This document shows, piece by piece, positions 2,714-20,643 of a stretch of 64,000 nt of DNA; the first letter of the stretch is position 1; every line of letters begins with the position of its first letter. The notes beneath the pieces were generated by a model. The model did not search any database, had not been told where the DNA came from, and saw nothing but the letters and a program-made list of their open reading frames with translations. Both the position numbers and the translations under genes were made by a program. The DNA lies in contig NZ_KQ410734.1 of assembly GCF_001262505.1 (NCBI RefSeq), forward strand, positions 1 to 64,000. The letters are read 5' to 3'. This stretch comes from Shinella sp. SUS2. Lineage in GTDB: Bacteria; Pseudomonadota; Alphaproteobacteria; Rhizobiales; Rhizobiaceae.

Positions 2714-3616
2714 CTACCGTTCCGGCAGGTGAAACGCCTGCTGGAAATAGGAGCGGAAGGCGAGCATGGGTGGGGTGAGCTCCATGTTGCGGCGCCAGGC
2801 GAGGCCGACATCCATGGCGGGCACGGGGTCGGCGATGTTGACGGTTTCGATGCGGCGGCCTTCCAGCGACCAGGGGCGGTGCACCATGTCGGAGAGGATG
2901 GCGACGCCCTGGCCATTGGCGACGAGAGAGCGCACGGCTTCCACGGACGACGTGCGCAGGATGACGCGCGGCTGGTAGGGGGTGGCGCTCCAGTATTTCA
3001 GGGCGGAATGGGCGGCCTCGTCCACCGTCAGCATGATGTAGGGTTCCTCGGCAATCTCCTTGAAGCCGACGGTTTCCATCTGCAGCAGCGGGTGCTGGGC
3101 GGGGAGCCATAGGCGGCGGGTGGAGCTCAAAACCTTTTCCGTCACCAGGGCCGGGTTGAGAATGTTCGAGGTGAGCAGCACCGACATATCGTAGCGATTG
3201 CTCAGCAGCCCCTCCTCGATGGATTCGCGGTTCAACTCGAAAAGCTGGATCTCGAGCCTCGGGAAGAGGCGGCGCAGGCGCTCGATATGGAGGGGAAGGA
3301 AATAGCCGATGACGGTATAGGTCGCGGCGACCGTCAGCGTACCTTCGATCTCGCTGCTGACGACGTTGAGATGCATCGCCTCGTCGACCTTCTTCAGGAT
3401 CTCATAGGCATGCGAGAGGAACTGGCGGCCGGCGGGCGTCAGGTCCATGCCGTGCGGGGCGCGCAGGAACAGGCTGGCGCCGAGCGTGCGTTCCAGCTCC
3501 TTGATCGCCGTCGTCACCGCCGATTGCGAAATGGAGAGGTCCACCGCGGCCTGCGAGATCTGGCCGAGCTCGGCGGTCGCGACAAAGTAGCGGATCTGGC
3601 GGAGGCTGATCGTCAC
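2714..3616 (-). CDS. LysR-family transcriptional regulator of the pxp/biotin cassette
   Basis: 300 residues from a GTG at 3616. The N-terminal helix-turn-helix (ISLRQIRYFVATAELGQISQAAVDLSISQSAVTTAIK, about residues 3-40) is a textbook LysR domain, followed by a periplasmic-binding-protein-like effector domain. It diverges from the five-gene biotin/oxoprolinase cassette starting at 3872 across a 255-base AT-rich gap with a LysR-type box. LysR proteins usually control the divergent operon and themselves, so it probably activates the cassette in response to its lactam-like substrate or a breakdown product; the ligand is inferred, not seen. Confidence 0.93.
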   Translation of the reverse strand: MTISLRQIRYFVATAELGQISQAAVDLSISQSAVTTAIKELERTLGASLFLRAPHGMDLTPAGRQFLSHAYEILKKVDEAMHLNVVSSEIEGTLTVAATYTVIGYFLPLHIERLRRLFPRLEIQLFELNRESIEEGLLSNRYDMSVLLTSNILNPALVTEKVLSSTRRLWLPAQHPLLQMETVGFKEIAEEPYIMLTVDEAAHSALKYWSATPYQPRVILRTSSVEAVRSLVANGQGVAILSDMVHRPWSLEGRRIETVNIADPVPAMDVGLAWRRNMELTPPMLAFRSYFQQAFHLPER

Positions 3617-3871: not shown

Positions 3872-4645
3872 GTGCGCGAGGTCGTCGATATCAATTGCGA
3901 CATGGGCGAGGCCTTTGGCCGCTGGCGCGTCGGCGATACAGACGACGCAGCGCTGATGCCGCTGATCAGCTCTGCCAATATTGCGGCGGGCTTCCATGCC
4001 GGCGATCCCAACCTGATGGACGAGACGGTGCGGCTTGCCGCCGAACACGGCGTCGGCATCGGGGCGCATCCCGGCTACAACGACCTGCAAGGTTTTGGCC
4101 GGCGCAAGATCGCCGGCACGGCGCGCGAACTCGTCAACGACATCGTCTACCAGGTCGGGGCCATCAGGGAATTCGCCCATCGCCACGGCGTGCGCCTGCA
4201 ACATGTCAAGCCGCACGGTGCGCTCTACATGGAGATGGCGGTCAATCCGGAACTGTCGCAGATTTTCGTCCAGTATATGCGCACCGTTGAGCCGAACGCC
4301 TTCATCTTTTGCATGGGCGGCTCGGCGACGTTTCGTGCGGCGCAGGAGGCGGGTCAGCCGGTCGTGCGGGAGTTCTATGCCGACCGGGATTACGATGACA
4401 GCGGCTCCATCGTCTTCACCCGCGATGCCGGCCGGCCGGATCCCGCCACCATCGCGAAGAAGGTGCTGCGCGCCTGCCAGGAGGGCCGGGTGCGCACGGT
4501 GCAGGGCAACGACATCGCCATCGACTTCGAATCCATCTGCTTCCATTCCGATACGCTCGGCGCCTTCGAGATTGTTAGCCGCATGCGGGAGGCGCTGGTG
4601 GGGGCCGGCATTCGCATCGCGCCGGTCTCGGCGGCCGGGCGCTGA
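3872..4645 (+). CDS. pxpA: 5-oxoprolinase subunit A-like protein (LamB/YcsF family)
   Basis: 257 residues from a GTG preceded by AGGGTAG. Family motifs are all present: DINCDMGE at 6-13, [12 protein letters not shown] at 35-46, and GAHPGYND soon after, which form the metal-dependent active site of LamB/YcsF (PxpA) proteins. PxpA works with PxpB and PxpC to open 5-oxoproline to glutamate with ATP. It is the first gene of a compact cassette, 79 bases before the biotin carrier gene. Because a biotin carboxylase and carrier are included, the true substrate may be another lactam or cyclic amide. Cytoplasmic; no signal peptide. Confidence 0.9.
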
Positions 4646-4724
4646 CGCAGTTCCGGCAAACGTTCGAAAGCGGTTTGCGCCGGCAAGTGCGTGACAACAA
4701 AGAGTTCAAGTGGAGAGAGACAAT

Positions 4725-4967
4725 ATGAGCAAGATCGAGATCAGATCGCCCCTGCCGGGCACTTTCTACCGTTCGCCCTCGCCGGACGTGCCGCCGTTCA
4801 AGACGGATGGCGACAGCGTTTCGAGCGGTGATGCGATCGGGCTCATCGAGGTGATGAAGACGTTCCAGGAGGTGCCGGCGGGCGTCGAAGGCAGGAACAT
4901 TACCTTCCTCGTCGACAACGAGGAGCCGGTCATGGCGGGGCAGGTGATTGCCGAGGTAGAGGCATGA
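4725..4967 (+). CDS. Biotin carboxyl carrier protein, single biotinyl domain
   Basis: 80 residues. ATG 4725 is preferred over GTG 4710 because GGAGAGA sits just upstream of the ATG. The protein is little more than a biotinyl/lipoyl domain: the biotin-accepting Lys45 lies in IEVMKTF, with the usual SPLPGTFYRSPSPD opening and the PVMAGQVIAEVEA closing strand. AccB proteins are about 150 residues with a long linker; this one lacks it, so it is a dedicated carrier rather than the housekeeping subunit. It overlaps the biotin carboxylase by 4 bases (ATGA), implying tightly coupled translation. Confidence 0.92.
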   Translation: MSKIEIRSPLPGTFYRSPSPDVPPFKTDGDSVSSGDAIGLIEVMKTFQEVPAGVEGRNITFLVDNEEPVMAGQVIAEVEA

Positions 4968-6349
4968 CGATCCGCTCGATCCTCGTCGCCAACCGCGGGG
5001 AGATCGCGGTGCGCATCATCAAGGCGGCCAAGGCGCTCGGCATTCGCACCGTGCAGGTGCACAGCGCCGCCGATGCGGACATGCTGGCGGTGAAACTGGC
5101 GGACCAGGCGGTCGATATCGGTTCGCCGGCGCCGAAGAAATCCTATCTCAACATCGAGGCGGTGGTGAACGCTGCCAAGGCGGCCAGCGTCGATGCGGTG
5201 CACCCGGGCTACGGTTTCCTCTCGGAAAATGCCGATTTCGCCGATGCGGTGGAGGCCGCGGGGCTGATCTTCATTGGCCCGAAAGGCGATGCCATCCGCC
5301 TGCTCGGCGACAAGGTGGCCGCGCGCGAAGTGGCGGCAAGAGCCGGCGTGCCGACGGTGCCCGGCAGCGCCGGGCGGCTTGCGACCCTTGAGGAAGCGCG
5401 GGCCGTGGCTGAGAAAACCGGCTTTCCGATCATGATCAAGGCGGCAGCGGGCGGGGGCGGTCGCGGCATCCGCATTGCCGCCGATCTCGCCGATCTTGAA
5501 CGACATTTTCCGCAGGCGTCGGCTGAGGCGCTCGCCTCCTTCGGCGATGGCGGGCTCTATCTCGAAAAGGTCATCACTAAGGCCCGCCATGTCGAGGTGC
5601 AGATCCTCGGTGACGGCGAAAACTTCGTCCACTGCTTCGAGCGGGAGTGCTCGCTGCAACGCCGCCGCCAGAAGGTCTGGGAGGAGGCGCCGTCCTTCCT
5701 GCTTCCCGCCGAGGTGCGCAAGCGGCTGTGCGACAGTGCGGTGGCGCTGGCGCGCGAGGTCGGCTATCGCGGCGCGGGCACGGTGGAATATCTCTATGAC
5801 GAGGCGACGCGTGACTTCTATTTCATCGAGGTGAACACACGCATCCAGGTCGAGCATCCCGTGACGGAGATGATCACCGGCATCGACCTCGTGGAAGAGA
5901 TGATCCGCATTGCCGGCGGTGCGCCGCTGTCGATCGGTCAGAAGGATGTTGTGGCCGAAGGCCACGCCATCGAGTGCCGCATCAATGCCGAGGACCCGGC
6001 GAGGGGTTTTCTGCCGGCGCCGGGCACGATCACCAGGCTCGTCGTTCCGGAGGGCGAGGGTATCCGCTTCGATACCATGCTCTACGAGGGTTACACGATC
6101 CCGCCCTTCTACGATTCGCTCGTCGGCAAGCTGATCGTCTGGGGCGAGACGCGCAAGGCTTGCCTTGCGCGGCTGAAAGGCGCGCTGGAAGGTCTCGTTA
6201 TCGAGGGCATTTCGACGACCATACCGTTGCATCTGGCGCTTGCCACCGATGCCAGCGTTACGCGGGGCGCCTTCGACACCCGCTTCCTCGAACATTGGCT
6301 TGAAACCGATTTCGCCGCAAAGGCCGGCGCGACTGCGGAGGTTGCCTGA
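4964..6349 (+). CDS. Biotin carboxylase (AccC-like) of the pxp cassette
   Basis: 461 residues with the full AccC/urea-carboxylase biotin carboxylase order: the N-terminal ILVANRGEIAVRIIKAA, the ATP-grasp glycine-rich loop (KAAAGGGGRGIRIA), the catalytic EVNTRIQVEHPVTE region and the C-terminal domain with INAEDPARGFLPAPG. It carboxylates biotin on the carrier using ATP and bicarbonate. It overlaps genes on both sides (ATGA with the carrier; shared bases with pxpB), so it is an integral part of this cassette and not the fatty-acid enzyme, whose partner AccA/AccD genes are absent. Confidence 0.93.
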   Translation: MTIRSILVANRGEIAVRIIKAAKALGIRTVQVHSAADADMLAVKLADQAVDIGSPAPKKSYLNIEAVVNAAKAASVDAVHPGYGFLSENADFADAVEAAGLIFIGPKGDAIRLLGDKVAAREVAARAGVPTVPGSAGRLATLEEARAVAEKTGFPIMIKAAAGGGGRGIRIAADLADLERHFPQASAEALASFGDGGLYLEKVITKARHVEVQILGDGENFVHCFERECSLQRRRQKVWEEAPSFLLPAEVRKRLCDSAVALAREVGYRGAGTVEYLYDEATRDFYFIEVNTRIQVEHPVTEMITGIDLVEEMIRIAGGAPLSIGQKDVVAEGHAIECRINAEDPARGFLPAPGTITRLVVPEGEGIRFDTMLYEGYTIPPFYDSLVGKLIVWGETRKACLARLKGALEGLVIEGISTTIPLHLALATDASVTRGAFDTRFLEHWLETDFAAKAGATAEVA

Positions 6350-7224
6350 TGAGCATCCGATACACATTTGGCGGCGACGAGCACCTGTTCGTCGAATGCA
6401 GCGAGGAGATGTCGCTGGAAGCCTTCTTCAAGAGCCTGTCCATGGCGAAGGGGGTTCGCGAGAGCGCCATCAGGGGCGTGACGGAAATCTGCCCGGCAAA
6501 CGCCTCCTTCCAGGTGAAGTTCGACCCCGACCTCATCCACCCCGACGACATCCTGCGCGAGGTGAAGGCCATCGAGGGCGCGGCGGAAAAGGCCGAGCCT
6601 GTCTTGACCACCCGCATCGTCGAAATCCCCGTCTTCTACAACGATCCCTTCACGCATGAGACGCTGATGCGCTTTCGCGAGCGCCACCAGGACCCCTCGG
6701 GCACCGATCTCGACTATGCCGCGCGCATCAACGGCTACGGCTCGGTGGAGGATTTCGTCGCCGCGCATTCCGGCTCGCCCTGGTTCGTCTCTATGGTCGG
6801 CTTCGTTGCGGGCCTGCCCTTCATGTACCAGATGGTGGAGCGCCAGCGGCAGATCCAGGTGCCGAAATATCTGAGGCCCCGCACGGACACGCCGCGCCTC
6901 ACGGTCGGCCATGGCGGCTGCTTCGGCTGCATCTATTCGGTGCGCGGGGCGGGCGGCTACCAGATGTTCGGCATCACGCCCATGCCGATCTTCGATCCGG
7001 CGCAGACGACCAGTTATCTCATGGATTTCATGGTGTTCTTCCGCCCCGGCGACATCGTGAAGTTCAAGCCGATCGACCGCGACGCCTATGACCAGGCGGT
7101 GGAGGATGTCGACAGGGGCCGTTTCGCCCCGCCCATCCGCGAGGTGCGTTTCGACCTCAGGGACTTCCAGAAGGACATCGACGGCACCAACGCCAAGCTG
7201 GAGGGCATGCTCCATGGCCATTAA
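6349..7224 (+). CDS. pxpB: 5-oxoprolinase subunit B-like protein (AHS1/KipI family)
   Basis: 291 residues, longer than the about 230 of Escherichia coli PxpB or Bacillus KipI. The N-terminal half (YTFGGDEHLFVECSEEMSLEAF...) resembles the KipI N-domain, and the second half holds a divergent AHS1 core with RTDTPRLTVGHGG and a cysteine pair (GCFGC). AHS1 together with AHS2 (next gene) forms the carboxyltransferase part of urea carboxylase and the kinase-like part of PxpABC. Start ATG 6349 overlaps the biotin carboxylase stop. The extra length and unusual Cys pair may mark a subfamily tied to the biotin partners. Confidence 0.85.
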   Translation: MSIRYTFGGDEHLFVECSEEMSLEAFFKSLSMAKGVRESAIRGVTEICPANASFQVKFDPDLIHPDDILREVKAIEGAAEKAEPVLTTRIVEIPVFYNDPFTHETLMRFRERHQDPSGTDLDYAARINGYGSVEDFVAAHSGSPWFVSMVGFVAGLPFMYQMVERQRQIQVPKYLRPRTDTPRLTVGHGGCFGCIYSVRGAGGYQMFGITPMPIFDPAQTTSYLMDFMVFFRPGDIVKFKPIDRDAYDQAVEDVDRGRFAPPIREVRFDLRDFQKDIDGTNAKLEGMLHGH

Positions 7225-8185
7225 GGTACTCCATCACGGTCTTGCGACCACCGTCCAGGATCTCGGCCGGCCCGGCTATTTCCACCTCGGCATTCCCGTC
7301 GGCGGGGCGATGGACCGCTATGCGATGCGCGCGGCCAACCTGCTCGTCGGCAACGACGAGGGCGCGGCGGGGCTGGAGGCCGTGTTCATCGGTCCCAAGC
7401 TGGAATTTTCCGAAGATGCGCTGGTTGCCGTGACCGGCGCGGACATGCCGGCCAAGGTGGACGGCGTTCTCCAGCCCGGCTGGACGGCCTTCAGGGTGAA
7501 GGCGGGCCAGACGCTGACCTTCGACTTCCTGAAATCCGGCGCGCGCATCTGCATTGCCGTTTCCGGCGGCATCGACGTGCCGGAAGCGCTCGGCAGCCGC
7601 GCGACCTATCCGATCGGCGCGCTCGGCGGCTTCAAGGGCCGGCCGCTTGCGGCGGGCGACGCGCTGCCGGTCGGCGCGGGAAGCCTGGCAAGCGAGGGCA
7701 AGACCGTGCCCGAGGCGCTGCGCCGCAAGCCGGGCCTGCCGGCGGAGCTGCGCGTGCTGCCCGGCCTCTACTGGCACCGCGTCACCGAACAATCGCAGGA
7801 AAACTTCTTTGCCGACGAATGGAAGGTGGCGAACGAGGCGGACCGCATGGGCTATCGCTTCAAGGGCGGGCGCAAGCTCGATTTCGTGGAGCGCGACCAG
7901 CCGTTCGGCGCGGGTTCGGACCCGTCGAACATCGTCGATAGCTGCTATCCCTACGGCTCGATCCAGGTGCCAGGCGGCACGGAGCCGATCATCCTGCACC
8001 GCGACGCCGTCTCCGGCGGTGGCTATTTCATGGTCGGCACGGTCATTTCCGCCGACATGGACTTCATCGGCCAACTCCAGCCGCACACGCCAACCCGCTT
8101 CGTCAAGGTGACGATGGAGGAGGCGCTGGCGGCGCGGAAAGTCCGACAGGCGGGGCTTGTGCAGCTGCGCCAAGCGCTGGCGTAG
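7214..8185 (+). CDS. pxpC: Biotin-dependent carboxyltransferase / PxpC-like protein (AHS2 family)
   Basis: 323 residues. ATG 7214 is chosen because the family N-terminus (IKVLHHGLATTVQDLGRPGYFHLG) begins there, overlapping pxpB by 11 bases. The AHS2 signature VQDLGRPGY...GIPVGGAMDRYAMRAANLLVGN is clear. In urea carboxylase this domain carries substrate-side carboxyl transfer from biotin; in PxpABC it pairs with PxpB. As last gene of the cassette it completes the set biotin carboxylase + carrier + AHS1 + AHS2, the same domain set as the single-chain urea carboxylase. Cytoplasmic. Confidence 0.9.
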   Translation: MAIKVLHHGLATTVQDLGRPGYFHLGIPVGGAMDRYAMRAANLLVGNDEGAAGLEAVFIGPKLEFSEDALVAVTGADMPAKVDGVLQPGWTAFRVKAGQTLTFDFLKSGARICIAVSGGIDVPEALGSRATYPIGALGGFKGRPLAAGDALPVGAGSLASEGKTVPEALRRKPGLPAELRVLPGLYWHRVTEQSQENFFADEWKVANEADRMGYRFKGGRKLDFVERDQPFGAGSDPSNIVDSCYPYGSIQVPGGTEPIILHRDAVSGGGYFMVGTVISADMDFIGQLQPHTPTRFVKVTMEEALAARKVRQAGLVQLRQALA

Positions 8186-8481: not shown

Positions 8482-9492
8482 TCAATCGAGAACGGGCGTC
8501 AGATAGGCGGCCGTCACCCCCGGCCCCGGAATGATCGCGACGATCTTCATCTGGGCGATGGTGCGGTTCAGCGAAGCCTGCAGGTGAGTCTCCATCATGG
8601 AGACCGCCGATTCCGTCGCCCCGCGCAGCAGAAGTTCTGCGACGAGGCGCAGTTCCGTTATGATCGCGGGATCGCCGGGCAGGCCAAGACGGCGCAGCAG
8701 GCGGTCGGTGGCGGTGACGGGCAGGAGATTGTTGCGCACCAGGTCCTTCAACCGCTCGTTCGGCGCGGCGAGCACGCAGCATTCGATGAACTCGGTCTGG
8801 ATCGCCTCGACCTCGCGCAGCGCCCCGGCGGTGCTCGCCTCTTCGGCGCCGCGCAGGCGCCTCAAAAGGGTTTCCAGCCGTGCCTGGCTGACGGCGCGGG
8901 CACCGAGGCGGATCGCCGGCGGTTCCAGCATGGTGCGCAGCACGAAATGGTCCTTCACCGTCTGGGCGGTCAGCGGCCCGGCGATCCAGTGCGAGCTCTG
9001 GTTCTTGCGCACGAGGCCCCGCTCGCGCAGCCGCGTCAGCACGTCGCGCACCACGGTGCGGCTGACGTTGAAATGGTTGGCGAGCTCCATCTCTATGATC
9101 CGGTAGCGGCCGAACACCACGCAGCCCGCGACATCCGCTTCCACCTGGTTGTAGATGCGCTCCCAGGAGGAGCGGCTTTGCAGGGCTTCGTCGGCATGGC
9201 GCGGCACGATGAGGCCGAGGGCCTTGATATCCGTGCGGTTCGGCTCGACATCCGCGCCCGGCGGGCCGACGAGAAAGCCGCGGCCGGAAAAGCGGTGCAC
9301 CAATCCTTCTGCTTCCAGCGTCTGCAAGGCGCGCTGCACCGGCGCGCGCGAGGTTTGCAGGATGTCGGCGATCGGGCCTTCCAGGAGCACCAGGCCGGGT
9401 GGCAGCGTGCCCGTTTCGATATTGCTGCGCAGCACGTCCTCGGCGATCGCGTAGCGCCGCTGGGTGCCGGTGGCTGCCTGCTCGTCCGTCAT
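8482..9492 (-). CDS. FCD-type regulator with two GntR winged-helix domains
   Basis: 336 residues from the ATG at 9492; a longer frame to 9639 adds 49 residues unlike the family. Unusually there are two winged-helix GntR domains: one at about residues 12-75 (RYAIAEDVLRSNIETGTLPPG...RAPVQRALQTLEAEGLV), a second at about 105-165 (ELANHFNVSRTVVRDVLTRLRERGLV), then an FCD-like helical ligand domain. Ordinary FadR/FCD proteins have one DNA domain and about 230 residues. It diverges from the large ABC/amidase operon starting at 10047, with matching candidate operators in front of both genes, so it most likely represses that operon and itself. Confidence 0.88.
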   Translation of the reverse strand: MTDEQAATGTQRRYAIAEDVLRSNIETGTLPPGLVLLEGPIADILQTSRAPVQRALQTLEAEGLVHRFSGRGFLVGPPGADVEPNRTDIKALGLIVPRHADEALQSRSSWERIYNQVEADVAGCVVFGRYRIIEMELANHFNVSRTVVRDVLTRLRERGLVRKNQSSHWIAGPLTAQTVKDHFVLRTMLEPPAIRLGARAVSQARLETLLRRLRGAEEASTAGALREVEAIQTEFIECCVLAAPNERLKDLVRNNLLPVTATDRLLRRLGLPGDPAIITELRLVAELLLRGATESAVSMMETHLQASLNRTIAQMKIVAIIPGPGVTAAYLTPVLD

Positions 9493-9572
9493 GGAATCCC
9501 GTATCCGTCGGCCTCGTGGAGGGATGCACTCTGACGCATTCTCCGGCGCAAGGAAAGGACAGCATAAATGAT

Positions 9573-9585
9573 TATTGAATACAAA
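9573..9585. promoter_or_regulatory. Candidate GntR operator copy 1 (TATTGAATACAAA)
   Basis: This 13-base word occurs twice in the 550-base gap between the two-GntR-domain regulator and the ABC operon. On the other strand it contains TTGTATTCAA, close to the TTGTATACAA-like palindromes bound by FadR/FCD GntR proteins. This copy lies 81 bases upstream of the regulator start and is followed by a further ATTGAATA, suggesting autoregulation. Confidence 0.55.
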
Positions 9586-9824
9586 GATTGAATATAGCTT
9601 TCGCTTATCGTTGACGATGGAAAGCTGCGGCGCATTCATGATGGCTGTGCTGTCTTTGTGGAGTGATCGCCGATTTTATCGGCGAATGCGATGAATTTTG
9701 CGCACAATGCGCGAAAAATCGACAGAGAGTTGAAAGAGGCTGCGCGAGAAAGTCAGGTCGTCGTGGCTGGATTTCTGTGGCCTGGAGGCGAAAATGGTTG
9801 CGCGATAGAAATTTCTAAAAAGTC

Positions 9825-9837: not shown

Positions 9838-10046
9838 AATCATTCATGCCATGCTTTTGATACCAAGACGTCCGCAAGAGGCGTCGACAGTGGAACAAAA
9901 CGAAATGCTCAGGATCGACGCTGCGCCGCGCATCTGACCGATGCGGGACTGCAAGCTCTTTGTCTTCTCCGGACGCGGCTTCCCGTCCGGTGGACGGCGG
10001 AGCCTTGTCTGCAGGAAGGCCCTGGCGGGAACTGGTGGGAACAGAG

Positions 10047-11120
10047 TTGTCAGCCGTCCTCCAACTGAAAAATGTACACAAGGCGTTTGCCGGCGTGCCG
10101 GCGCTTGCAGGCGTCGATGCGATGCTGGCCGAGGATAGTTACGTCTCGCTGCTTGGACCGTCGGGTTCCGGCAAGACGACGCTTCTGCGGGTCATCGCCG
10201 GTTTCGAGCAGCCGGATGGCGGTGAAATCCTCTTTGCCGGCCGGCGCATCGACGGTGTGCCGCCACATGAGCGCGGCATCGGCTTCGTCTTCCAGAACTT
10301 TGCGCTCTTTCCCCATCTCAGCGTTGCCGAAAATATCGCCTTCGGTCTTGAAAACCGTGCAGTCGATCCGGTGACGGATGCGAAGGTCGTTGCCGTGCGG
10401 GTACGCGACATGATCGGCCTCGTCGGGCTTTCAGGCCTGGAAGACCGTGCCGTTACGCAGATTTCCGGCGGACAGAAGCAGCGCGTCGCACTCGCCCGTA
10501 CGCTGGTGACGGAGCCGAGCATGGTGTTGCTCGACGAGCCGCTCGGCGCGCTCGATGCCAATCTGCGCACACGCATGCGCAGCGAACTGCGTACGATCCG
10601 CGAGCGCTGCGGCGTGACCTTCCTGCATGTCACGGGGTCCGAGACCGAGGCGCTCGCCATGGGCGACACCGTGCTGGTGCTCGATCGTGGCCGCATCGCG
10701 CAATCGAGCGATGCCGGCACGCTCTACAGCCGCCCGGCCTCGGCCGACGTCGCGCGTTTCCTCAACTGCTACAACATCTTTTCCGGCGCGGTGTCGGGGG
10801 ATGTCTTCGAGAGCGCGGTCGGCCGCCTGGCACTTGGCGGCAGCAGGCAGAAATCCGGCAAGCAGGCCTACGCCATCCGTTACGACCGGGTTGCGATCCG
10901 CCCGAGAGATGCGGCGGCCGCTGGCGACGAGGTGCGCATCGAGGCGAGCTTCGTCGCCAGCGAGTATTCCGGTGCGGCGATCAACTCCTTCTTCACGCTC
11001 GACGACGGTCGCGTCTTCGAGGTGGAGACCCATCTCAGCCACGCCGCACCCGAGGTTTTCGAGGAAAAGGCTCGCTACGCCCTCGTCTGGAAACGGGAGG
11101 ACGCGCTTGTCTTCGTTTGA
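10047..11120 (+). CDS. ABC transporter ATP-binding protein 1 (PotA-like)
   Basis: 357 residues if started at TTG 10047, where family similarity begins (SAVLQLKNVHKAFAGVPAL) and GGTGGGA precedes; a TTG at 9960 would add 29 residues. Walker A is GPSGSGKTT, the signature is ISGGQKQRVALAR, Walker B is MVLLDEP, and a C-terminal TOBE-like domain follows. It belongs to the spermidine/putrescine-iron-sugar (PotA/FbpC) importer type. It opens the operon. A second PotA-like ATPase (15809) lies in the same operon, so this importer probably uses a heterodimer of ATPases, since there are also two permeases. Confidence 0.9.
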   Translation: MSAVLQLKNVHKAFAGVPALAGVDAMLAEDSYVSLLGPSGSGKTTLLRVIAGFEQPDGGEILFAGRRIDGVPPHERGIGFVFQNFALFPHLSVAENIAFGLENRAVDPVTDAKVVAVRVRDMIGLVGLSGLEDRAVTQISGGQKQRVALARTLVTEPSMVLLDEPLGALDANLRTRMRSELRTIRERCGVTFLHVTGSETEALAMGDTVLVLDRGRIAQSSDAGTLYSRPASADVARFLNCYNIFSGAVSGDVFESAVGRLALGGSRQKSGKQAYAIRYDRVAIRPRDAAAAGDEVRIEASFVASEYSGAAINSFFTLDDGRVFEVETHLSHAAPEVFEEKARYALVWKREDALVFV

Positions 11121-11147
11121 AGCCCCCATCCACCCGGAGAATGAGAG

Positions 11148-12053
11148 ATGACGATGGCCGCCACCAGCCATGACACGCCGGTCGAGACGGCGGCATCCGC
11201 CGCCCGCAAGAAGCCGGACCGCACCATTTGGCTGCTCGCCCCCGGCGTCCTGTGGATGCTGCTCTTCCTCGTCGCGCCTATCCTGATGATGGTCTACGTC
11301 TCGTTTTGGACGCAGACCACCTTCAAGATCGAGCCGACGCTGACCCTGAAGAGCTGGGTCACCTTCTTCTCGTCGGACACCTATCTCGGCGCGCTCTGGA
11401 CGACGATCCGCATCTGGCTGATCGTACTCGTCTCGACGCTCCTCGTCGGATATCCCGCGGCGCTCTTCGTCGGACTGTTCGTGAAGAACAAGACGCTCTC
11501 GACGGCGCTGTTGGTGCTCTGCGTCATTCCGTTCTGGACCTCCTTCCTCATCCGCGTGCTCGCCTGGCGGCCGATGCTCGGCAAGGAGGGCGCGATCAAC
11601 ATGATCCTGATGAAGCTCGGCATCGTCACCCAGCCGATCGAGGTGCTGCTCTTCTCCGAACTTTCGGTCATCATCGGCATGACGCAGATCTATTGCGTCT
11701 TCATGGTTGGGCCTATCGCCTTCATGCTCGGTCGCATCGATCCCTCCGTCATCGAGGCGGCGCAGGATCTCGGCGCGAGCTTCTGGCGGATTTTTCGAAC
11801 CATCATCCTGCCGCTCTCCATGCCGGGCGTGGTGGTGGGCTCGATCTTCGTCTCCGTCATGGTGCTCGGCGAATTCGCGACGTCGGCCGCCCTTTCCGGG
11901 CGCAAGGTCAACCTCCTCGGCAACATCATCGTCACCCAGGTCGGCTCGCTGAAATGGGCCTTCGCCGCCGTCGCCGGCGTGGTGCTGACCATCCTGATGG
12001 GGGCGGTCGTTGCCGCCATGCTTCGGGTCGTCGATCTCAGGAAGGAGCTCTGA
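11148..12053 (+). CDS. ABC transporter permease 1 (PotB-like)
   Basis: 301 residues, ATG 11148 with GGAGAA a few bases upstream. About six membrane segments (for example WLLAPGVLWMLLFLVAPILMMV, WLIVLVSTLLVGYPAALFVGL, and the last near AAVAGVVLTILMGAVVAAML). The coupling EAA loop reads EAAQDLGASFWRIFRTIILPL. It is the PotB-type inner-membrane subunit, paired with the permease directly downstream (3-base gap). Confidence 0.92.
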   Translation: MTMAATSHDTPVETAASAARKKPDRTIWLLAPGVLWMLLFLVAPILMMVYVSFWTQTTFKIEPTLTLKSWVTFFSSDTYLGALWTTIRIWLIVLVSTLLVGYPAALFVGLFVKNKTLSTALLVLCVIPFWTSFLIRVLAWRPMLGKEGAINMILMKLGIVTQPIEVLLFSELSVIIGMTQIYCVFMVGPIAFMLGRIDPSVIEAAQDLGASFWRIFRTIILPLSMPGVVVGSIFVSVMVLGEFATSAALSGRKVNLLGNIIVTQVGSLKWAFAAVAGVVLTILMGAVVAAMLRVVDLRKEL

Positions 12054-12056
12054 GCC

Positions 12057-12902
12057 ATGAACGCAGCTGGCATCAAGCTTGGCCTCGGCCTCTATACGAC
12101 GTTGTTCATCGTCTTCCTCTACGGCCCGCTTGCGGTGCTCGCCATCCTTTCCTTCCAGACCGGGCCGGAGGGCGGGCCGCAGTTCCCGATCATCGAATGG
12201 TCGACCTACTGGTACAAGCACCTCTTCGGCCTTACGCCGCCGTCGCGCATCGCGCCGCTGCCGATCGACCAGGCGCTGGTGCGCTCGCTGGCGCTCGCGG
12301 TCATGACGATGATCGTCTCCACCGTGCTCGGCGTTACCGCCGCACAGGCATTCCGCAAGAAGTTCCGCGGCTCGGGCGTCGTCTTCTATCTCATCGTGCT
12401 CGGCATGATGGTGCCCGGCGTGCTCGTCGGCCTCGGCATGGCGCTGGTCGCCAACGCGCTCGGCATCGACCGCCACTGGTGGGGCACGGCCTTCGTGCTG
12501 CATGTCGTCTACACCTTCCCTTTCGCCTTCCTCGTCATGCTGGCGATCTTCAACCGCTTCGATCCGAGCGTCGAGGAGGCCGCTTGGTCGCTCGGGGTCA
12601 CTCCGGCACGCACCTTCCGCAAGATCACCTTCCCGCTGATCTTCCCCGGCGTGCTTTCGGCCATGCTCTTTGCCTTCACGCTCTCCTATGACGAGTTTTC
12701 GCGCACGCTCTTTGCCTCCGGCCGGGACCTGACGTTGCCGCTCGCCATCTACGGCACCTTCTCGGTGGAAGTGCATCCGAACGTCTTCGCCTTCGGCGTG
12801 TTGACGACGCTGTTCTCCTTCGCGCTGCTCGGCACCTATGCCGTTCTGATGGGCTTTTCTGTGCGCCGTGCCAAGCGCATGGCGATCCAGGAGGAAGCGT
12901 GA
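12057..12902 (+). CDS. ABC transporter permease 2 (PotC-like)
   Basis: 281 residues with six predicted membrane segments, starting LGLGLYTTLFIVFLYGPLAVLAIL. The EAA loop is EEAAWSLGVTPARTFRKITFPLIFPG. It is the PotC-type partner of the permease upstream. Its stop overlaps the start of the first SDR gene (TGATG), tying the importer to the catabolic enzymes. Substrate class by family is polyamine or other small organic cation or anion; it cannot be fixed further from this subunit. Confidence 0.92.
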   Translation: MNAAGIKLGLGLYTTLFIVFLYGPLAVLAILSFQTGPEGGPQFPIIEWSTYWYKHLFGLTPPSRIAPLPIDQALVRSLALAVMTMIVSTVLGVTAAQAFRKKFRGSGVVFYLIVLGMMVPGVLVGLGMALVANALGIDRHWWGTAFVLHVVYTFPFAFLVMLAIFNRFDPSVEEAAWSLGVTPARTFRKITFPLIFPGVLSAMLFAFTLSYDEFSRTLFASGRDLTLPLAIYGTFSVEVHPNVFAFGVLTTLFSFALLGTYAVLMGFSVRRAKRMAIQEEA

Positions 12903-13636
12903 TGGCGGGCGCTGCTCTCGTCACCGGCGCAGGCTCCGGCATCGGCCGCGCCATCGCGATAAAACTTGCGGCGAATGGGTATGCCGTCACCGTCAACGAT
13001 CTCTCGCTCGAACATGCCGAGGCTGTCGTGGGCGAGATCCGCGCGGCGGGCGGCCGGGCCGTCGCCGTTGTGGGCGACGTCTCCGGCGAGGCGGATGTCG
13101 CGCTCATCCATCTTGCCGCCGTTGCGGCGCATGGCGATGTCACGCTGCTCGTCAACAATGCCGGCATCGTCCATCAGGCCCTGTTCGAAAATCTCGATGT
13201 CGGCGATTTCGACCGTATGTTCGCCGTGCATGTGCGCGGCACCTTCCTGATGACCAAGGCCGTGCTGCCGGCAATGCTTGCCGCCGGAACAGGCGTCATC
13301 GTCAATGTCGCCTCGCAGCTCGGCCAGATCGGCGGCGTGGAGCTGGTGCACTATTCCGGTGCGAAAGCCGCGATCATCGGCATGACCAAGGCGCTCGCCC
13401 GCGAGATTTCCGCCCGCGGCGTGCGGGTGAACGCCGTCGCGCCGGGGCCGATCAACACGCCACTGGTCATGGGCCTTTCCGAAGACTGGCGCGCCGCCAA
13501 ACGCGCCGGCCTTCCCCTCGGTCGCTTCGGCGAGCCGGAGGAGGTCGCCGAGACGGTCGCCTTCCTCGCCTCGCCTGCCGCCAGCCTCTTCGTCGGGCAG
13601 ACGCTCGGACCGAATTCCGGCGACGTCATGCTGTGA
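12902..13636 (+). CDS. SDR-family oxidoreductase 1
   Basis: 244 residues from ATG 12902 (GTG 12899 is possible). It is a classical short-chain dehydrogenase: TGAGSGIG cofactor loop at about 9-16, NNAG in the middle (LLVNNAGIVHQ), Ser in NVASQLGQ, catalytic Tyr-x3-Lys in HYSGAKAA, and NAVAPGPINTP. It would oxidise or reduce a hydroxyl/keto group with NAD(P)H. Translation is probably coupled to the permease upstream. A second SDR follows after 14 bases; the pair may act one after another on the imported compound or one may be an epimerase-like partner. Confidence 0.92.
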   Translation: MAGAALVTGAGSGIGRAIAIKLAANGYAVTVNDLSLEHAEAVVGEIRAAGGRAVAVVGDVSGEADVALIHLAAVAAHGDVTLLVNNAGIVHQALFENLDVGDFDRMFAVHVRGTFLMTKAVLPAMLAAGTGVIVNVASQLGQIGGVELVHYSGAKAAIIGMTKALAREISARGVRVNAVAPGPINTPLVMGLSEDWRAAKRAGLPLGRFGEPEEVAETVAFLASPAASLFVGQTLGPNSGDVML

Positions 13637-13650
13637 ACCCGGAGACAACA

Positions 13651-14418
13651 ATGTCCAACCAAAAGAAACGCATCGTCATCATCACCGGGGCCGGCATCGG
13701 CATCGGCGCAGCCACCGCGAAGGCGTTTGGCGCGCTCGGCGACCATGTGGTCGTCACCGATATTCTGGAGGCGGAAGGCCGCGCGGTCGTCGAGGCGATT
13801 TCTGCGGCCGGCGGCTCGGCGGAATTCCATCGCTACGACGTGCGCTCAACGGCGGCGACCGATGCGCTCGTTGCTGATGTCGAGGCGCGGCACGGGCGGA
13901 TCGACGTCGTTGTCGCCAATGCCGGCATCGCGCACCGTACGAAGCTTGCCGATCTCACCGACGAGAAGTGGGACCTCACCTTCGACATCGACCTCAAGGG
14001 CATCTTCCGCCTCGTGCGCGCCGCCGCGCCCGGTATGCGTGCCCGTCGATCCGGGGCGGTCGTCGCGCTCTCCTCCATCATGGGTGTCGCCTATGGCTGG
14101 GACGAGCATGTGCACTATTCGGCGGCCAAATCCGGCGTCGTCGGCCTCGTGCGGGGGCTCGCGGTCGAGATGGCGCGCGACGGTGTGCGGGTGAACGGCA
14201 TTGCGCCCGGCTACATCCGCACCGCCCAGCTTCTGTCCGAGGAAAATTCGCTCGGGCCGGCGGCAGCGGAAAAGGCGGCGGAGTTCATTCCGATGGGGCG
14301 GCTTGGAACCGGGGAGGACATCGCCGATGTCGCCGCGTTCCTTGCCTCCGACAGCGCGAGATACATGACCGGCCAGGTGCTGGTCGTGGATGGCGGCCTT
14401 CTGGTGGGCCGGTACTGA
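13651..14418 (+). CDS. SDR-family oxidoreductase 2
   Basis: 255 residues from ATG 13651 (GGAGAC upstream). Motifs: IITGAGIGIG at about 9-18, VANAGIAH, Ser pair in ALSSIMG, Tyr-x3-Lys in HYSAAKSG, and NGIAPGYIRT. Only moderately similar to the SDR just before it, so it is a paralogue rather than a recent copy. Cytoplasmic NAD(P)-dependent enzyme, likely acting on the operon's substrate or its ring-opened product. Confidence 0.92.
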   Translation: MSNQKKRIVIITGAGIGIGAATAKAFGALGDHVVVTDILEAEGRAVVEAISAAGGSAEFHRYDVRSTAATDALVADVEARHGRIDVVVANAGIAHRTKLADLTDEKWDLTFDIDLKGIFRLVRAAAPGMRARRSGAVVALSSIMGVAYGWDEHVHYSAAKSGVVGLVRGLAVEMARDGVRVNGIAPGYIRTAQLLSEENSLGPAAAEKAAEFIPMGRLGTGEDIADVAAFLASDSARYMTGQVLVVDGGLLVGRY

Positions 14419-14518
14419 GCAATTCCAGCAAACATGTGCAGCGGTTTTGCGTCCGGAATTGCGAACAAAAAGAGAGCCGCAGGGCGGCTCAGGGAACGAT
14501 AACAACTGGAGAAGAGAC

Positions 14519-15751
14519 ATGTTCAAGTCGGAAATCAATCGCCGCTCGCTTCTCAAGCGCTCGGCAGGCGTGATGGCGCTGGCGATGGGTGGCGGCACGC
14601 CGTTCCTGTCCTCCCGCATGGCCTTCGCGCAGGCCGCTGACCTTGCCGGCCAGCAGCTCCGCACCATCGGCCTTTCCGTAACGGTGCAGGAACGCATCCT
14701 CGAAGAGTTCAAGAAGGCGTCGGGTGTCGGCGGTACGTCCGGTACCGCCGCCACCTTCCCGGATGCGCAGACGAAGATCCTCTCGGGCTCGAAGGACTAC
14801 GATTGCTGGGAGATCATCGCCGAGCGCCTGCCCTCCATCGTCATGACCGACAATGTGGAGACGATCCCGGCGGCTTCGCTGAAGAACTGGGCGAACATCC
14901 GCGATACCTTCACCACGGCGAGCGACAAGTGGGACCGCGCCGCGCAGATCGTCGGCCAGATCTGGGCGGACGAGGGCCAAACCGTGCTCAACATGGTGCC
15001 CGCCGTCTACAACTACGATTCCATCGGCTACAACCCGGATGTGCTCTCCGATGAGGAGGCCAATACCTGGACGGCGATCTTCGATGCGAAGTGGAAGGGC
15101 AAGTCGGGCCTCAACACCGACCCGCTCATCGCCTTCGGCCAGGCCATCATGGCGATGAACACGCTCGGTCTTTCGGATGTCAAGAACCCCGGCAACCCGA
15201 CCGCCGCCGAGATCGACGAGGCCGCCGCCTTTCTCGTCTCCAAGAAGAAGGAAGGCCAGTTCCGTGCGCTCTGGGGCGATTTCGGCGAGCTGGTCAACCT
15301 GATGGCCTCGGGCGAGATGGTCGTCTGCGACGCCTGGCAACCCGCCGTCATGGCTGTCAAGGCGCAGGGCAAGGCCTGCAAATACGCCGTGCCGAAGGAA
15401 GGCTATCGCGGCTGGGCGATCGGCCCGTCGATGATCGCGGGCACCACCAACCGGGAGGCGGTCATCGCCTATGCCGATTACTGGCTCTCGGGTGAACCCG
15501 GCATCACCGTCTCCGAACAGGGCTACTATTCGCCCTCGACCAATATCAAGGACGTCATGGCCCCGGAAAAATACGCCTTCTGGTACGAGGGCAAGCCCTG
15601 GGTCGGTGCGGAAGAGCGCGGCATCAAGGAGGGGGACCTGCGCGATGGTGGTTCGCTGGAAGAGCGCGCCAAGAACGTCGCCTACTGGCACCAGTGGCCG
15701 GAAGAATACGATCACCTCATCCAGAAGTGGGACGAATTCCTCAACGCCTGA
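14519..15751 (+). CDS. ABC transporter solute-binding protein with Tat signal
   Basis: 410 residues from ATG 14519 (GGAGAAGAG upstream). The N-terminus NRRSLLKRSAG followed by a mild hydrophobic stretch and a FAQA cleavage region is a twin-arginine signal, so the protein is folded before export to the periplasm. The rest is a PotD/SBP-type binding protein (family 1/8). Its 3' part shares spaced identities with the second binding protein at 19409 (EGYRxW, SGxPGxxVxxQGYY, WYEG). It delivers substrate to the two permeases of this operon. Confidence 0.9.
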   Translation: MFKSEINRRSLLKRSAGVMALAMGGGTPFLSSRMAFAQAADLAGQQLRTIGLSVTVQERILEEFKKASGVGGTSGTAATFPDAQTKILSGSKDYDCWEIIAERLPSIVMTDNVETIPAASLKNWANIRDTFTTASDKWDRAAQIVGQIWADEGQTVLNMVPAVYNYDSIGYNPDVLSDEEANTWTAIFDAKWKGKSGLNTDPLIAFGQAIMAMNTLGLSDVKNPGNPTAAEIDEAAAFLVSKKKEGQFRALWGDFGELVNLMASGEMVVCDAWQPAVMAVKAQGKACKYAVPKEGYRGWAIGPSMIAGTTNREAVIAYADYWLSGEPGITVSEQGYYSPSTNIKDVMAPEKYAFWYEGKPWVGAEERGIKEGDLRDGGSLEERAKNVAYWHQWPEEYDHLIQKWDEFLNA

Positions 15752-15808
15752 TCCCAAGACGAAGGACCGGGGCGCGCGTGGCCCCGGTCCGCGACCGGAG
15801 ATTTTCTG

Positions 15809-16903
15809 ATGCTATTCGACCTCGAACTCAACACTGTCGGCAAGGTCTATGACAACGGAACGCCCGCCGTCATCGATTTCAATCTTTCCGTCCAGAAGGG
15901 CGAGTTCATTGCCTTCCTCGGCCCCTCGGGCTGCGGCAAGACGACGACGCTGCGCATGATCGCCGGTTTCGAGGGCATTTCCTCCGGCGAGATGCGCATC
16001 CGCGGCGAGCGCATGAACGAGGTGCCGCCGCAGCGCCGCCCGACCTCGATGATTTTTCAGAACTACGCGCTCTTTCCGCATATGAGTGTGCGCCGCAATG
16101 TCGGTTACGGCCTGGAGGTGAAGGGTATCGCCAAGAGCGAACGCGAGGCCAAGGTCGACCGCATCCTCGCAACGCTCGGCCTTGAGGACATCGCCGAGCG
16201 CAAGCCGGAAAAACTCTCGGGCGGCCAGCGCCAGCGCATCGCGCTCGCCCGCGGCCTCGTCGTCGAGCCGGACATCCTGCTGCTTGACGAGCCGCTCGGT
16301 GCTCTCGATGCGAACCTCCGCAAGGCCATCCAGAACGAGTTGAAGCTCCTGCAAAAGAGCCTCGGCGTCACCTTCATCTTCGTCACGCATGCCCAGTCCG
16401 AGGCTTTGGCGCTCTCCGACCGCATCGTTGTGATGAACCAGGGCCGCGTCGAGCAGGTGAGCCCGCCGCACCAGCTCTATAGCCGGCCGAACACACCCTT
16501 CGTCGCGCAGTTCATCGGCCGCAACACCGTGCTTTCGGGCGAGGTTGCAGGCAGCGAGGGTGAGGACGTGGTGGTGACGACGGGCATCGGCACGCTTTGC
16601 GGCCGTGCCAACGGGGCGCTCGCCGAGAAGGGCCGCGTCAATCTCGTCGTGCCGGCCGAGGCGATCGAGCTGCATACGGCGGGCGAGGCCGCGCTTTCCG
16701 GTGTGAAGAACCGCGTCGATGCCCGCATCGAGCGCTCCGAGGTCGTCGGTCATATCGCCCACCTGACGGCGCGGCTTCAGGACGGCCGGGCTATCGCGCT
16801 GGAAGCCCATGTCGACAAGTACCGCCCGGGTGCGTTCCCGGCCGGAACCCCCGTTCTTTTGAGCTGGAACCCCGCCGAGGCGACGGTCATCCCGGCCCAG
16901 TGA
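15809..16903 (+). CDS. ABC transporter ATP-binding protein 2 (PotA-like)
   Basis: 364 residues. Walker A GPSGCGKTT, signature LSGGQRQRIALAR, Walker B ILLLDEP, H-loop FVTHAQSEAL, and a TOBE domain at the C-terminus. It is clearly different from ATPase 1 of the same operon, so duplication is old. With two permeases and two ATPases the importer can assemble as a full heterotetramer. Lies 57 bases after the binding-protein gene. Confidence 0.92.
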   Translation: MLFDLELNTVGKVYDNGTPAVIDFNLSVQKGEFIAFLGPSGCGKTTTLRMIAGFEGISSGEMRIRGERMNEVPPQRRPTSMIFQNYALFPHMSVRRNVGYGLEVKGIAKSEREAKVDRILATLGLEDIAERKPEKLSGGQRQRIALARGLVVEPDILLLDEPLGALDANLRKAIQNELKLLQKSLGVTFIFVTHAQSEALALSDRIVVMNQGRVEQVSPPHQLYSRPNTPFVAQFIGRNTVLSGEVAGSEGEDVVVTTGIGTLCGRANGALAEKGRVNLVVPAEAIELHTAGEAALSGVKNRVDARIERSEVVGHIAHLTARLQDGRAIALEAHVDKYRPGAFPAGTPVLLSWNPAEATVIPAQ

Positions 16904-16933
16904 TCCTTCTTTCAGGGAACCAAGGAGATAAAA

Positions 16934-17815
16934 ATGGCAAAAGAGATTTTGTGCAGTTTCGGCGTCGACGTCGATGCGGTGGCCGGCTGGATCGGCTCCT
17001 ATGGCGGTGAGGATTCGCCCGACGACATCTCGCGCGGCATCTTTGCCGGCGAGGTGGGCAGCTTGCGGCTCCTGAAACTCTTCGAGCGGTTCGGTATCAG
17101 GACGACCTGGTTCATCCCCGGCCATTCGATCGAGACGTTCCCGGAGCAGATGCAGGCCGTTGCCGAGGCCGGCCACGAGATCGGCATTCACGGCTATACC
17201 CATGAAAACCCCATCGCCATGACGCGGGAGCAGGAGACGGAGGTGCTCGACAAGAGCATCGAGCTGGTCACCAAACTTTCGGGCAAGCGGCCGACCGGCT
17301 ATGTCGCACCGTGGTGGGAGTTCTCCAATGTCACCAACGAGTTGCTGCTGGAGCGCGGCATCAAGTACGACCACTCGTTGATGCACAATGACTTCACGCC
17401 CTACTACGTGCGCGTCGGCGACAGCTGGACGAAGATCGACTATTCCAGGAAGCCGTCGGACTGGATGGTGCCGCTGAAGCGCGGCCATGAGACCGACCTC
17501 ATCGAAATCCCGGCCTCCTGGTATCTCGACGACCTGCCGCCGATGATGTTCATCAAGAAATCCCCGAACAGCCACGGCTTCGTCAATCCGCGGCAGATCG
17601 AGGAGATGTGGCGCGACCAGTTCGACTGGGTCTATCGCGAGATGGATTATGCGGTGTTCCCGCTGACCATCCATCCGGACGTCGCCGGCCGGCCACAGGT
17701 GCTGATGATGCTGGAGCGGCTTTATGCCCACATGATCAAGCATCCGGGTGTGAAGTTCGTGACGATGGACGAGATCGCGGATGATTTCGCCAAGCGGTTT
17801 CCACGCAAGAAATGA
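16934..17815 (+). CDS. Polysaccharide-deacetylase-fold hydrolase (PuuE/HpPgdA-like, possible cyclic imidase)
   Basis: 293 residues, ATG preceded by AAGGAG. NodB-homology fold: [11 protein letters not shown] near the start supplies the metal-binding Asp, and [14 protein letters not shown] gives the His-x3-His pair; [11 protein letters not shown] ends the domain. There is no signal peptide, so it does not act on cell-wall glycans. Cytoplasmic members of this branch include PuuE allantoinase, Helicobacter HpPgdA and cyclic imide hydrolases (imidases), which open cyclic amides with a bound metal. With an amidase in the same operon, an imidase/half-amidase pair is my favoured reading; this is inference. 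Confidence 0.82.
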
Positions 17816-17840
17816 CTGCGGGGATCGCGCGGAGCGTTTG

Positions 17841-17976
17841 CCCCTCACCCTAACCCCCTCCCCGCAAGCGGGGAGGGGAGGTGCCCAACGGAACGGTGAT
17901 GCCTGAGGCAACCGGCGTATCCTGCCTCCTTCACGCCGCTTGTGGGGAGAAGGAGGTTGGCAGGCCGGATGAGGGG
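17841..17976. repeat. Rhizobial intergenic palindromic repeat element
   Basis: Starts CCCCTCACCCTAACC and ends with an inverted CCGGATGAGGGG near 17965-17976. Inside is a perfect 11-base hairpin, arms 17855-17865 and 17868-17878 with loop AA, and a second stretch rich in CTCC/GGAG. It belongs to the same general style as the element at 8286-8437. It separates the deacetylase-fold gene from the CSLCG gene and may tune distal expression of the operon. Confidence 0.7.
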
Positions 17977-18010
17977 CTGTGCGTCTCGGCGATAGAAAGG
18001 ACCAAACCCC

Positions 18011-20641: not shown

Positions 20642-20643
20642 CG

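Follow-up and report, generated by a model that had tools for sequence, protein, structure and literature searches.

A stretch of 64,000 nucleotides from Shinella sp. SUS2 (contig NZ_KQ410734.1, positions 1 to 64,000; hereafter the window) carries on its plus strand, between positions 3872 and 8185, a cassette of five genes for a LamB/YcsF protein, a biotin carrier, a biotin carboxylase (BC), and the two halves, CT_C_D and CT_A_B, of a urea-carboxylase-type carboxyltransferase (CT). Judging from family matches, gene order and gene neighborhood, we consider it probable that these proteins constitute a split, biotin-dependent carboxylase of the urea carboxylase type that cooperates with a LamB/YcsF hydrolase in the opening of a lactam or a similar cyclic amide. 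The "PxpB" of this cassette is not an ordinary PxpB; it groups beside urea carboxylase, as indicated by its residue Lys173, the phylogeny of the CT halves, a predicted structure, and the extra length of the protein.

Results

The description given in the initial annotation, a urea carboxylase in pieces plus a ring-opening partner, is borne out by the way in which the four carboxylase genes match separate stretches of the urea carboxylase model TIGR02712 (BC, 3-443; CT_A_B, 448-767; CT_C_D, 803-1082; carrier, 1149-1200) and by the presence of the urea-carboxylase lysine in the CT. The pieces score 517.8, 231.9, 111.7, and 17.1 bits and stay below the cut-off of 1303.85 bits that applies to the single chain. 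CT_C_D receives 111.7 bits from this model versus 72.4 bits from the PxpB model TIGR00370 (cut-off 145.55), and CT_A_B, with 224.4 bits, lies beneath the cut-off of 500 of the PxpC equivalog NF045499 while it exceeds that of TIGR00724 (270.8 bits, cut-off 230.2). The best match of CT_C_D residues 3-274 to the sequence of a solved structure is the urea carboxylase from Kluyveromyces lactis.

For comparison, we assembled 117 loci, comprising the closest 80 of 259 relatives (the near set) and 37 divergent loci (the divergent set). A later sample, for which predictions had been set down in advance, added 32 loci found in 31 genomes of one other order; together these are 149 loci. A class-wide draw from the Gammaproteobacteria had yielded the cassette in 2 of 369 genomes, and the second order was sampled instead. 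As controls served 20 urea-carboxylase loci and 20 ordinary PxpB loci, hand-picked from match lists and not chosen at random. An alignment of 159 CT_C_D sequences (118 from cassettes, 20 urea carboxylases, 21 ordinary PxpB) places a lysine in the Lys173 column of all 118 cassette proteins and all 20 urea carboxylases, and an arginine in that of 21/21 ordinary PxpB. Counted by hand from a printed alignment, Lys173 pairs with Lys1605 of the K. lactis urea amidolyase, a residue described as the probable general base of urea carboxylase, with a kcat of the K1605A variant of 0.095 of the wild-type value (PMC5770610). Tyr174 and Tyr204 divide the sequences in the same manner as Lys173 does, apart from two ordinary PxpB proteins that possess neither residue at the position of Tyr174. 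Ordinary PxpB carries Arg-Arg where the cassette CT has Lys-Tyr, and the Lys-Tyr motif recurred throughout the later sample (32/32 loci).

Trees of both CT halves, in which 46 of the 118 cassette rows were included, separate ordinary PxpB and PxpC (support 99 and 97) from the urea carboxylases and the cassette CTs. In each tree, 40 of those 46 rows fall into a single supported clade. The rows do not make up a single group: one locus (L163, from Thermomicrobium) falls with urea carboxylase, and five others (L131-L134 and L178) occupy a branch of their own. Five structure models of CT_C_D were of uneven quality, with a mean pLDDT from 59 to 83; the best of them finds its closest fold match in the K. 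lactis urea carboxylase (Z 25.0, 277 residues), versus Z 17.0 over 199 residues for Escherichia coli PxpB (5dud_B). The elongation of this protein and its GCFGC pair had initially been read as hints of a distinct subfamily. The trees uphold the subfamily as such; the elongation, located at residues ~105-116 and in the C-terminal part, is genuine and urea-carboxylase-like, both segments being shared with urea carboxylase and missing from ordinary PxpB. The GCFGC pair is likewise genuine and is only partly diagnostic, as Cys191 is a family trait (80/80 near and 28/37 divergent loci) and Cys194 is also found in 20/20 urea carboxylases.

In a tree of the hydrolase that covered 32 of the 37 divergent, 8 of the 80 near and 14 of the 20 ordinary loci together with this genome's own ordinary PxpA, the LamB proteins of cassette loci form two clades, neither of them mixed with the 15 ordinary PxpA proteins. 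The window protein belongs to the larger clade, and the substrates may thus differ between the two.

The five-gene set is complete in 78 of the 80 near loci, in 27 of the 37 divergent loci, and in all 32 loci of the later sample; the two incomplete near loci (L029 and L038) reach a contig border before CT_A_B. Neither a BC nor a carrier lies near any of the 20 ordinary PxpB controls, and all 20 urea-carboxylase controls consist of one long chain. The arrangement of the cassette is not due to chance.

Several observations tie this unit to biotin. The window carrier has Lys45 within the motif IEVMKT, and an MK motif is present in 110/110 carriers found. The window BC holds the strict motifs EVNTRIQVEHPVTE and GGGGRG, which recur in 80/110 and 106/110 loci, respectively. 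The genome encodes one biotin protein ligase, a separate AccB/AccC-like pair on contig C2 (BC 55% and carrier 34% identical to those of the cassette), and only two CT_C_D genes; the separate pair and the small number of CT_C_D genes suggest that carrier and BC are dedicated to the cassette, which we count in favor of a split carboxylase. A housekeeping acetyl-CoA carboxylase was rejected as the identity of the cassette in view of that separate pair and of the Pfam matches, among which no AccA/AccD-type carboxyltransferase was found for the five cassette proteins. A gene for a BioY biotin transporter is located nearby in 9/117 and 6/32 loci (15/149 overall), compared with 0/40 controls, and 7/7 candidates checked by Pfam are BioY proteins. 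It lies directly downstream on the same strand in nine loci (L118, L119, L122, L128, L129, L130, L163, L309, and L310).

As to the substrate, genes for the γ-aminobutyrate (GABA) transaminase GabT or the succinate-semialdehyde dehydrogenase GabD (at least 55% identity; coverage of 75% for the 117 loci and of 50% for the later sample) are present in the flanks of 9/117 and 4/32 loci (13/149 overall), and none was detected near the 40 controls, even at 45% identity. The loci concerned include those of Agrobacterium vitis, Pannonibacter, Martelella, and a Bradyrhizobium metagenome-assembled genome; the genes stand in line with the cassette on one strand in five loci (L084, L119, L314, L321, and L333). 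L084 presents, on one strand, LamB, carrier, BC, both CT halves, a TorT-type ABC transporter, GabT and GabD; in L119, CT is followed by BioY and a succinate-semialdehyde dehydrogenase (TIGR01780, 730.8 bits, cut-off 646). In Aspergillus, lamA and lamB are described as co-regulated with the GABA transaminase gene gatA by AmdR (PMC8016842), and YcsF was tied early to lamB and 2-pyrrolidinone, the LamB/YcsF family being linked to lactams (PMC3412718). From these neighbors and this literature, we would expect a lactam that yields an ω-amino acid, with 2-pyrrolidinone as the first and δ-valerolactam as the second candidate. We name 2-pyrrolidinone itself as the substrate only tentatively, and the conversion of δ-valerolactam to 5-aminovalerate fits nearly as well. 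The activation of a lactam by carboxylation, as initially proposed, is accordingly plausible, with the neighboring BioY and GABA genes as indirect support; the substrates named are candidates.

Carboxylation of an acyclic amide, an amidine, or a urea-like compound, with LamB acting in the manner of an allophanate hydrolase, appears improbable to us, even though the nearest characterized relatives of the CT are urea carboxylases, urea carboxylase also accepts formamide and acetamide (PMC3098086), and an amidase gene (20638-22005; PRK06102 match, 710.8 bits) is found about 12 kb downstream of the cassette. The hydrolase of the cassette belongs to the lactam-tied LamB/YcsF family (PMC3412718) and is not an allophanate hydrolase of the amidase-signature type, and the loci viewed show no recurrent urea- or guanidine-type partner next to the cassette.

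Transporter genes are a further regular companion of the cassette. A polyamine-type, TorT-type, or NCS1-like transporter is encoded in 115/149 loci, and 114 of these have exactly one kind, as if different importers served one substrate. The polyamine-type ABC transporter accounts for 50/117 and 6/32 loci; 22/117 loci show no known transporter, in part because contigs end. The TorT-type proteins are by name parts of a trimethylamine N-oxide sensor, yet they sit together with an ABC ATPase and a permease. The NCS1-like permeases were assigned through PF02133 with weak to moderate scores, two of three that were checked lying under the Pfam cut-off; such a gene directly adjoins the cassette, in place of the ABC transporter, in L081, L083, L015, L165, L176, and L177.

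A number of findings speak against a lactam-opening, biotin-dependent cassette. Among the 23 loci from Pseudomonadaceae, BC adjoins in 18; in the other five, all from one genus (L144, L146, L251, L253, and L257), LysR, LamB, and both CT halves are retained, CT_C_D follows LamB immediately, and neither a carrier nor a BC adjoins. A search of two of these five genomes found no cassette-type BC or carrier elsewhere; the best BC (51% identity) and the best carrier (39%) are housekeeping-like. The CTs of this genus still carry Lys-Tyr. The genus provides a natural test of biotin dependence. Other incomplete loci are L124, L131-L134, L161, and L163, and in two of them (L124 and L163) the carrier is present and an adjacent BC is absent. 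Adjacency to BC and a biotin carboxyl carrier protein (BCCP) is not unique to the lysine type, as a fused PxpBC of the ordinary type has a BC-BCCP protein too. In pairwise comparison, CT_A_B scores 174.8 bits with E. coli YbgK vs 142.3 bits with urea amidolyase. BioY and GabT/GabD are near a minority of loci only and cluster in lineages, the window cassette itself showed no GabT/GabD neighbor, and of 24 GabD copies (at least 55% identity) in 20 genomes (~93 Mb), one adjoins a cassette. Set against this background, the neighbor counts speak for a link to GABA that is real, but confined to a minority of lineages.

The five Pseudomonadaceae genomes in which the three remaining genes stand alone, and the NCBIfam assignment of both carrier and BC as 'acetyl-CoA carboxylase', would suit a different explanation: carrier and BC as bystanders, accessory to acetyl-CoA carboxylase, and LamB and the CT-like pair opening their substrate by means of ATP alone. 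The adjacency of carrier, BC, and CT in the three sets of loci, the lack of an AccA/AccD-type CT among the cassette proteins, and the retention of the carboxyl-transfer lysine, the five BC-less loci included, argue against it, and we give it little credence.

The Shinella genome contains a second operon of related content on contig C10 (Table 1). It combines a fused PxpBC with PxpA, a D-glutamate cyclase, an NRAMP-type transporter, and a BC-BCCP protein, and looks, by its gene content, like a biotin-linked 5-oxoprolinase. BC-BCCP comes next after fused PxpBC in 6/6 genomic loci (from 5 of 150 genomes of the order; one locus is that of the present genome) and in 4/4 plasmid loci viewed (L274-L277); 204 plasmid records contain a match to fused PxpBC, and 96 of these records are from Klebsiella. 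All ten of these loci with BC-BCCP carry Arg-Arg. For this reason, we rejected the Lys/Arg residue as an indicator of biotin use, and a rule equating arginine with the absence of biotin is weakened; the residue marks lineage and is only suggestive of mechanism. Established PxpABC is not known to need biotin, and the initial annotation built on this premise; in view of these genomic and plasmid loci and of the title of PDB entry 9yx5, the premise is less clear than had been claimed.

Might the window cassette itself be a biotin-dependent 5-oxoprolinase, with the same machinery converting 5-oxoproline to glutamate? Its LamB protein surpasses the cut-off of the PxpA model NF003814 (293.4 bits, cut-off 226), the operon on contig C10 joins BC-BCCP to a fused PxpBC, a PxpA, a D-glutamate cyclase, and an NRAMP-type transporter, and transporters of the PxpT/YcsG type are described as serving 5-oxoproline (PMC13274462). 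We regard this as rather unlikely: a D-glutamate cyclase or NRAMP neighbor was not called in the 117 loci of the window type (with the divergent part listed) or in the 32 later ones, the genome already owns the fused PxpBC system, CT_C_D and CT_A_B remain below the cut-offs of the PxpB and PxpC equivalogs, and the neighbors indicate GABA rather than glutamate.

Two separate PxpBC lineages are tied to BC and carrier, and PDB entry 9yx5 concerns, by its title, an acyl-CoA carboxylase complex from a mycobacterium to which MSMEG_0435-0436 is bound. Both are hints that PxpBC-type pairs in general might be carboxyltransferases that draw on carboxybiotin, supplied either by a dedicated BC and carrier, as in the window type (Lys-Tyr) and the fused type (Arg-Arg), or, in loci lacking such neighbors, by housekeeping carboxylase complexes. 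If true, this would explain how lactams are opened in an ATP-dependent manner by proteins without a recognized ATP-binding domain. The 5-oxoprolinase of Bacillus subtilis has reportedly been reconstituted from recombinant PxpA, PxpB, and PxpC, which counts against such a generalization, and we view it as a speculative, not very likely, extension.

Table 1. Features in and around the cassette of the window, and the second Pxp operon of the same genome
Feature	Position	Strand	Basis or content
LysR-type regulator, divergent from the cassette	2714..3616	-	PF00126 + PF03466
LamB/YcsF (PxpA-like) ring-opening hydrolase, 257 amino acids, GTG start	3872..4645	+	PF03746, 303 bits
Stand-alone biotin carboxyl carrier, 80 amino acids	4725..4967	+	PF00364, 49.3 bits; NF005457, 121.3 bits (cut-off 87)
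Codon of Lys45, predicted biotin-accepting lysine in IEVMKT	4857..4859	+	Sequence
BC, 461 amino acids	4964..6349	+	PF00289, PF02786, PF02785; NF009471, 746.8 bits (cut-off 686)
CT half CT_C_D (AHS1; annotated PxpB-like), 291 amino acids	6349..7224	+	PF02682, 132.3 bits
Codon of Lys173 of CT_C_D, pairing with Lys1605 of K. lactis urea amidolyase	6865..6867	+	Alignment
CT half CT_A_B (AHS2; annotated PxpC-like), 323 amino acids	7214..8185	+	PF02626, 294.7 bits
GntR/FCD regulator	8482..9639	-	PF00392 (2 stretches) + PF07729
Polyamine-type ABC transporter (ATPase + two permeases), candidate substrate importer	9960..12902	+	Permease PF00528; ATPase start uncertain
Second biotin-linked Pxp operon (L005, C10:288000-304000)	6212-12479 of L005		NRAMP-type transporter, PxpA, D-glutamate cyclase, fused PxpBC, BC-BCCP

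The nearest named relatives of the window cassette are those of Shinella, with a CT_C_D that is 98% identical to that of S. yambaruensis. All of the five genes initially described as overlapping are present; four of them do overlap, by 4, 1, and 11 nucleotides at successive joins, and the LamB gene ends 79 nucleotides upstream of the carrier start. The nearest solved chains of LamB are the UPF0271 proteins PH0986, TTHB195, and PA4511, and E. coli YbgL. Elsewhere, the NCBI names from LamB to BC read 5-oxoprolinase subunit PxpA, acetyl-CoA carboxylase, and acetyl-CoA carboxylase biotin carboxylase subunit; the CT halves are called carboxyltransferase domain-containing protein and biotin-dependent carboxyltransferase family protein.

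A related LysR gene adjoins the cassette in 78/80 near loci and in 32/32 loci of the later sample. The GntR/FCD gene, which opens the commonest downstream module in Rhizobiaceae, is found in 47/80 near loci; in the window, its product has two GntR helix-turn-helix stretches within 385 amino acids. Beyond the ABC transporter, the region 12899-22005 encodes two SDR oxidoreductases, a polyamine-type binding protein, a polysaccharide-deacetylase-like protein, a CobW-type GTPase, a second binding protein, and the amidase. The transporter and SDR part of this run is also located 3' of the cassette in 6/32 loci from the other order.

Outside the window, HyuA/HyuB-type hydantoinase/oxoprolinase genes, members of an ATP-dependent lactamase family, adjoin the cassette in L010 (4238-6319), L309, L310, L315, L317, and L326, and share 74-77% identity among themselves across orders. 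A single run of genes on a plasmid of Thermomicrobium roseum (NC_011961.1, 742025-760867; L163) contains xanthine-dehydrogenase-like genes, a TorT-type ABC transporter, carrier, both CT halves, PxpA, and BioY. Xanthine-dehydrogenase-like neighbors (L163, L128, and L130) were rejected as a clue to the substrate, as they are not specific (7/117 cassette vs 3/20 ordinary PxpB loci).

Discussion

For a split urea-carboxylase-type enzyme, we propose the following scheme. BC would use ATP and bicarbonate to carboxylate the biotin on Lys45 of the carrier, from which the two CT halves, CT_C_D and CT_A_B, would transfer the carboxyl group to the amide nitrogen (or the lactim oxygen) of the substrate, Lys173 acting as the general base. 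LamB/YcsF would subsequently hydrolyze the activated ring, and CO2 would be released. With 2-pyrrolidinone as substrate, the product would be GABA, feeding GabT and GabD in amino acid breakdown.

Gene sets of this kind are already annotated in databases, without an assigned function. A study of the biotin carboxylase family from 2011 mentions CT halves that occur as pairs of separate proteins, with no functional data given, and lists acyl-CoAs, pyruvate, and urea as substrates of biotin-dependent carboxylases (PMC3199775). In the open-licence literature, a coverage that leaves most subscription journals aside, no functional study of the cassette was found. What is added here are the active-site residue of the urea carboxylase type, the phylogenetic split, the links to BioY and GABA, and the biotin-free exceptions.

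If our proposal is true, lactams would be an added class of substrates for biotin-dependent carboxylases, and CO2 would serve as a removable activating group with no carbon-carbon bond involved. The misleading labels 'acetyl-CoA carboxylase' and 'PxpA' could then be replaced in many genomes, and a possible enzyme for the lactams of nylon-4 and nylon-5 would be at hand. The split between Lys-Tyr and Arg-Arg, together with the biotin-free Pseudomonadaceae loci, makes the use of ATP by PxpBC directly testable.

Among known systems, the P. aeruginosa operon PA0492-PA0496 may be a counterpart of the cassette, a likeness drawn from gene labels. We take PA0492, PA0495, and PA0496 to be LamB and the two CT halves. 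The operon is listed as encoding a conserved hypothetical protein, a biotin-requiring enzyme, a carboxylase subunit, and two hypothetical proteins, with its function stated as unknown (PMC5521831 and PMC6249292). OplBA, CapAB, and HyuAB likewise open lactams at the expense of ATP, and lactim carboxylation has been discussed for these lactamases as a possible activating step (PMC8453981 and PMC11033972); unlike the cassette proteins, they possess the unrelated Hydantoinase_A/B fold and use no biotin. The lamA/lamB system for 2-pyrrolidinone use in Aspergillus nidulans shares the LamB family and a regulation in common with GABA genes, and differs in being fungal. Its LamA protein is presumably urea-carboxylase-like.

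The fused PxpBC and BC-BCCP system of contig C10 and of the Klebsiella and Rhizobium plasmids resembles the cassette in uniting PxpA, CT halves, BC, and carrier in one operon, but its CT halves are fused, as are BC and carrier, it has Arg-Arg, and its NRAMP transporter and frequent D-glutamate cyclase point to 5-oxoproline. PxpABC (E. coli YbgJKL; B. subtilis YcsF-KipI-KipA) has the LamB/YcsF, CT_C_D, and CT_A_B families in common with the cassette, whereas ordinary PxpB has arginine at the position of Lys173, lacks the extra segments, and has neither BC nor carrier nearby in the 20 controls. Nearest to the CT among characterized enzymes is urea carboxylase (TIGR02712; K. lactis 3va7 and 5i8i; Oleomonas), with the same four domains, a CT_C_D of similar length and matching fold, and the Lys-Tyr and Tyr-Gln positions of the CT in common. 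There, these domains reside in a single chain of ~1200 amino acids; in the cassette, they are distributed over four genes, the identity between the CTs amounts to only 25-30%, and the partner enzyme is a LamB/YcsF protein instead of an allophanate hydrolase.

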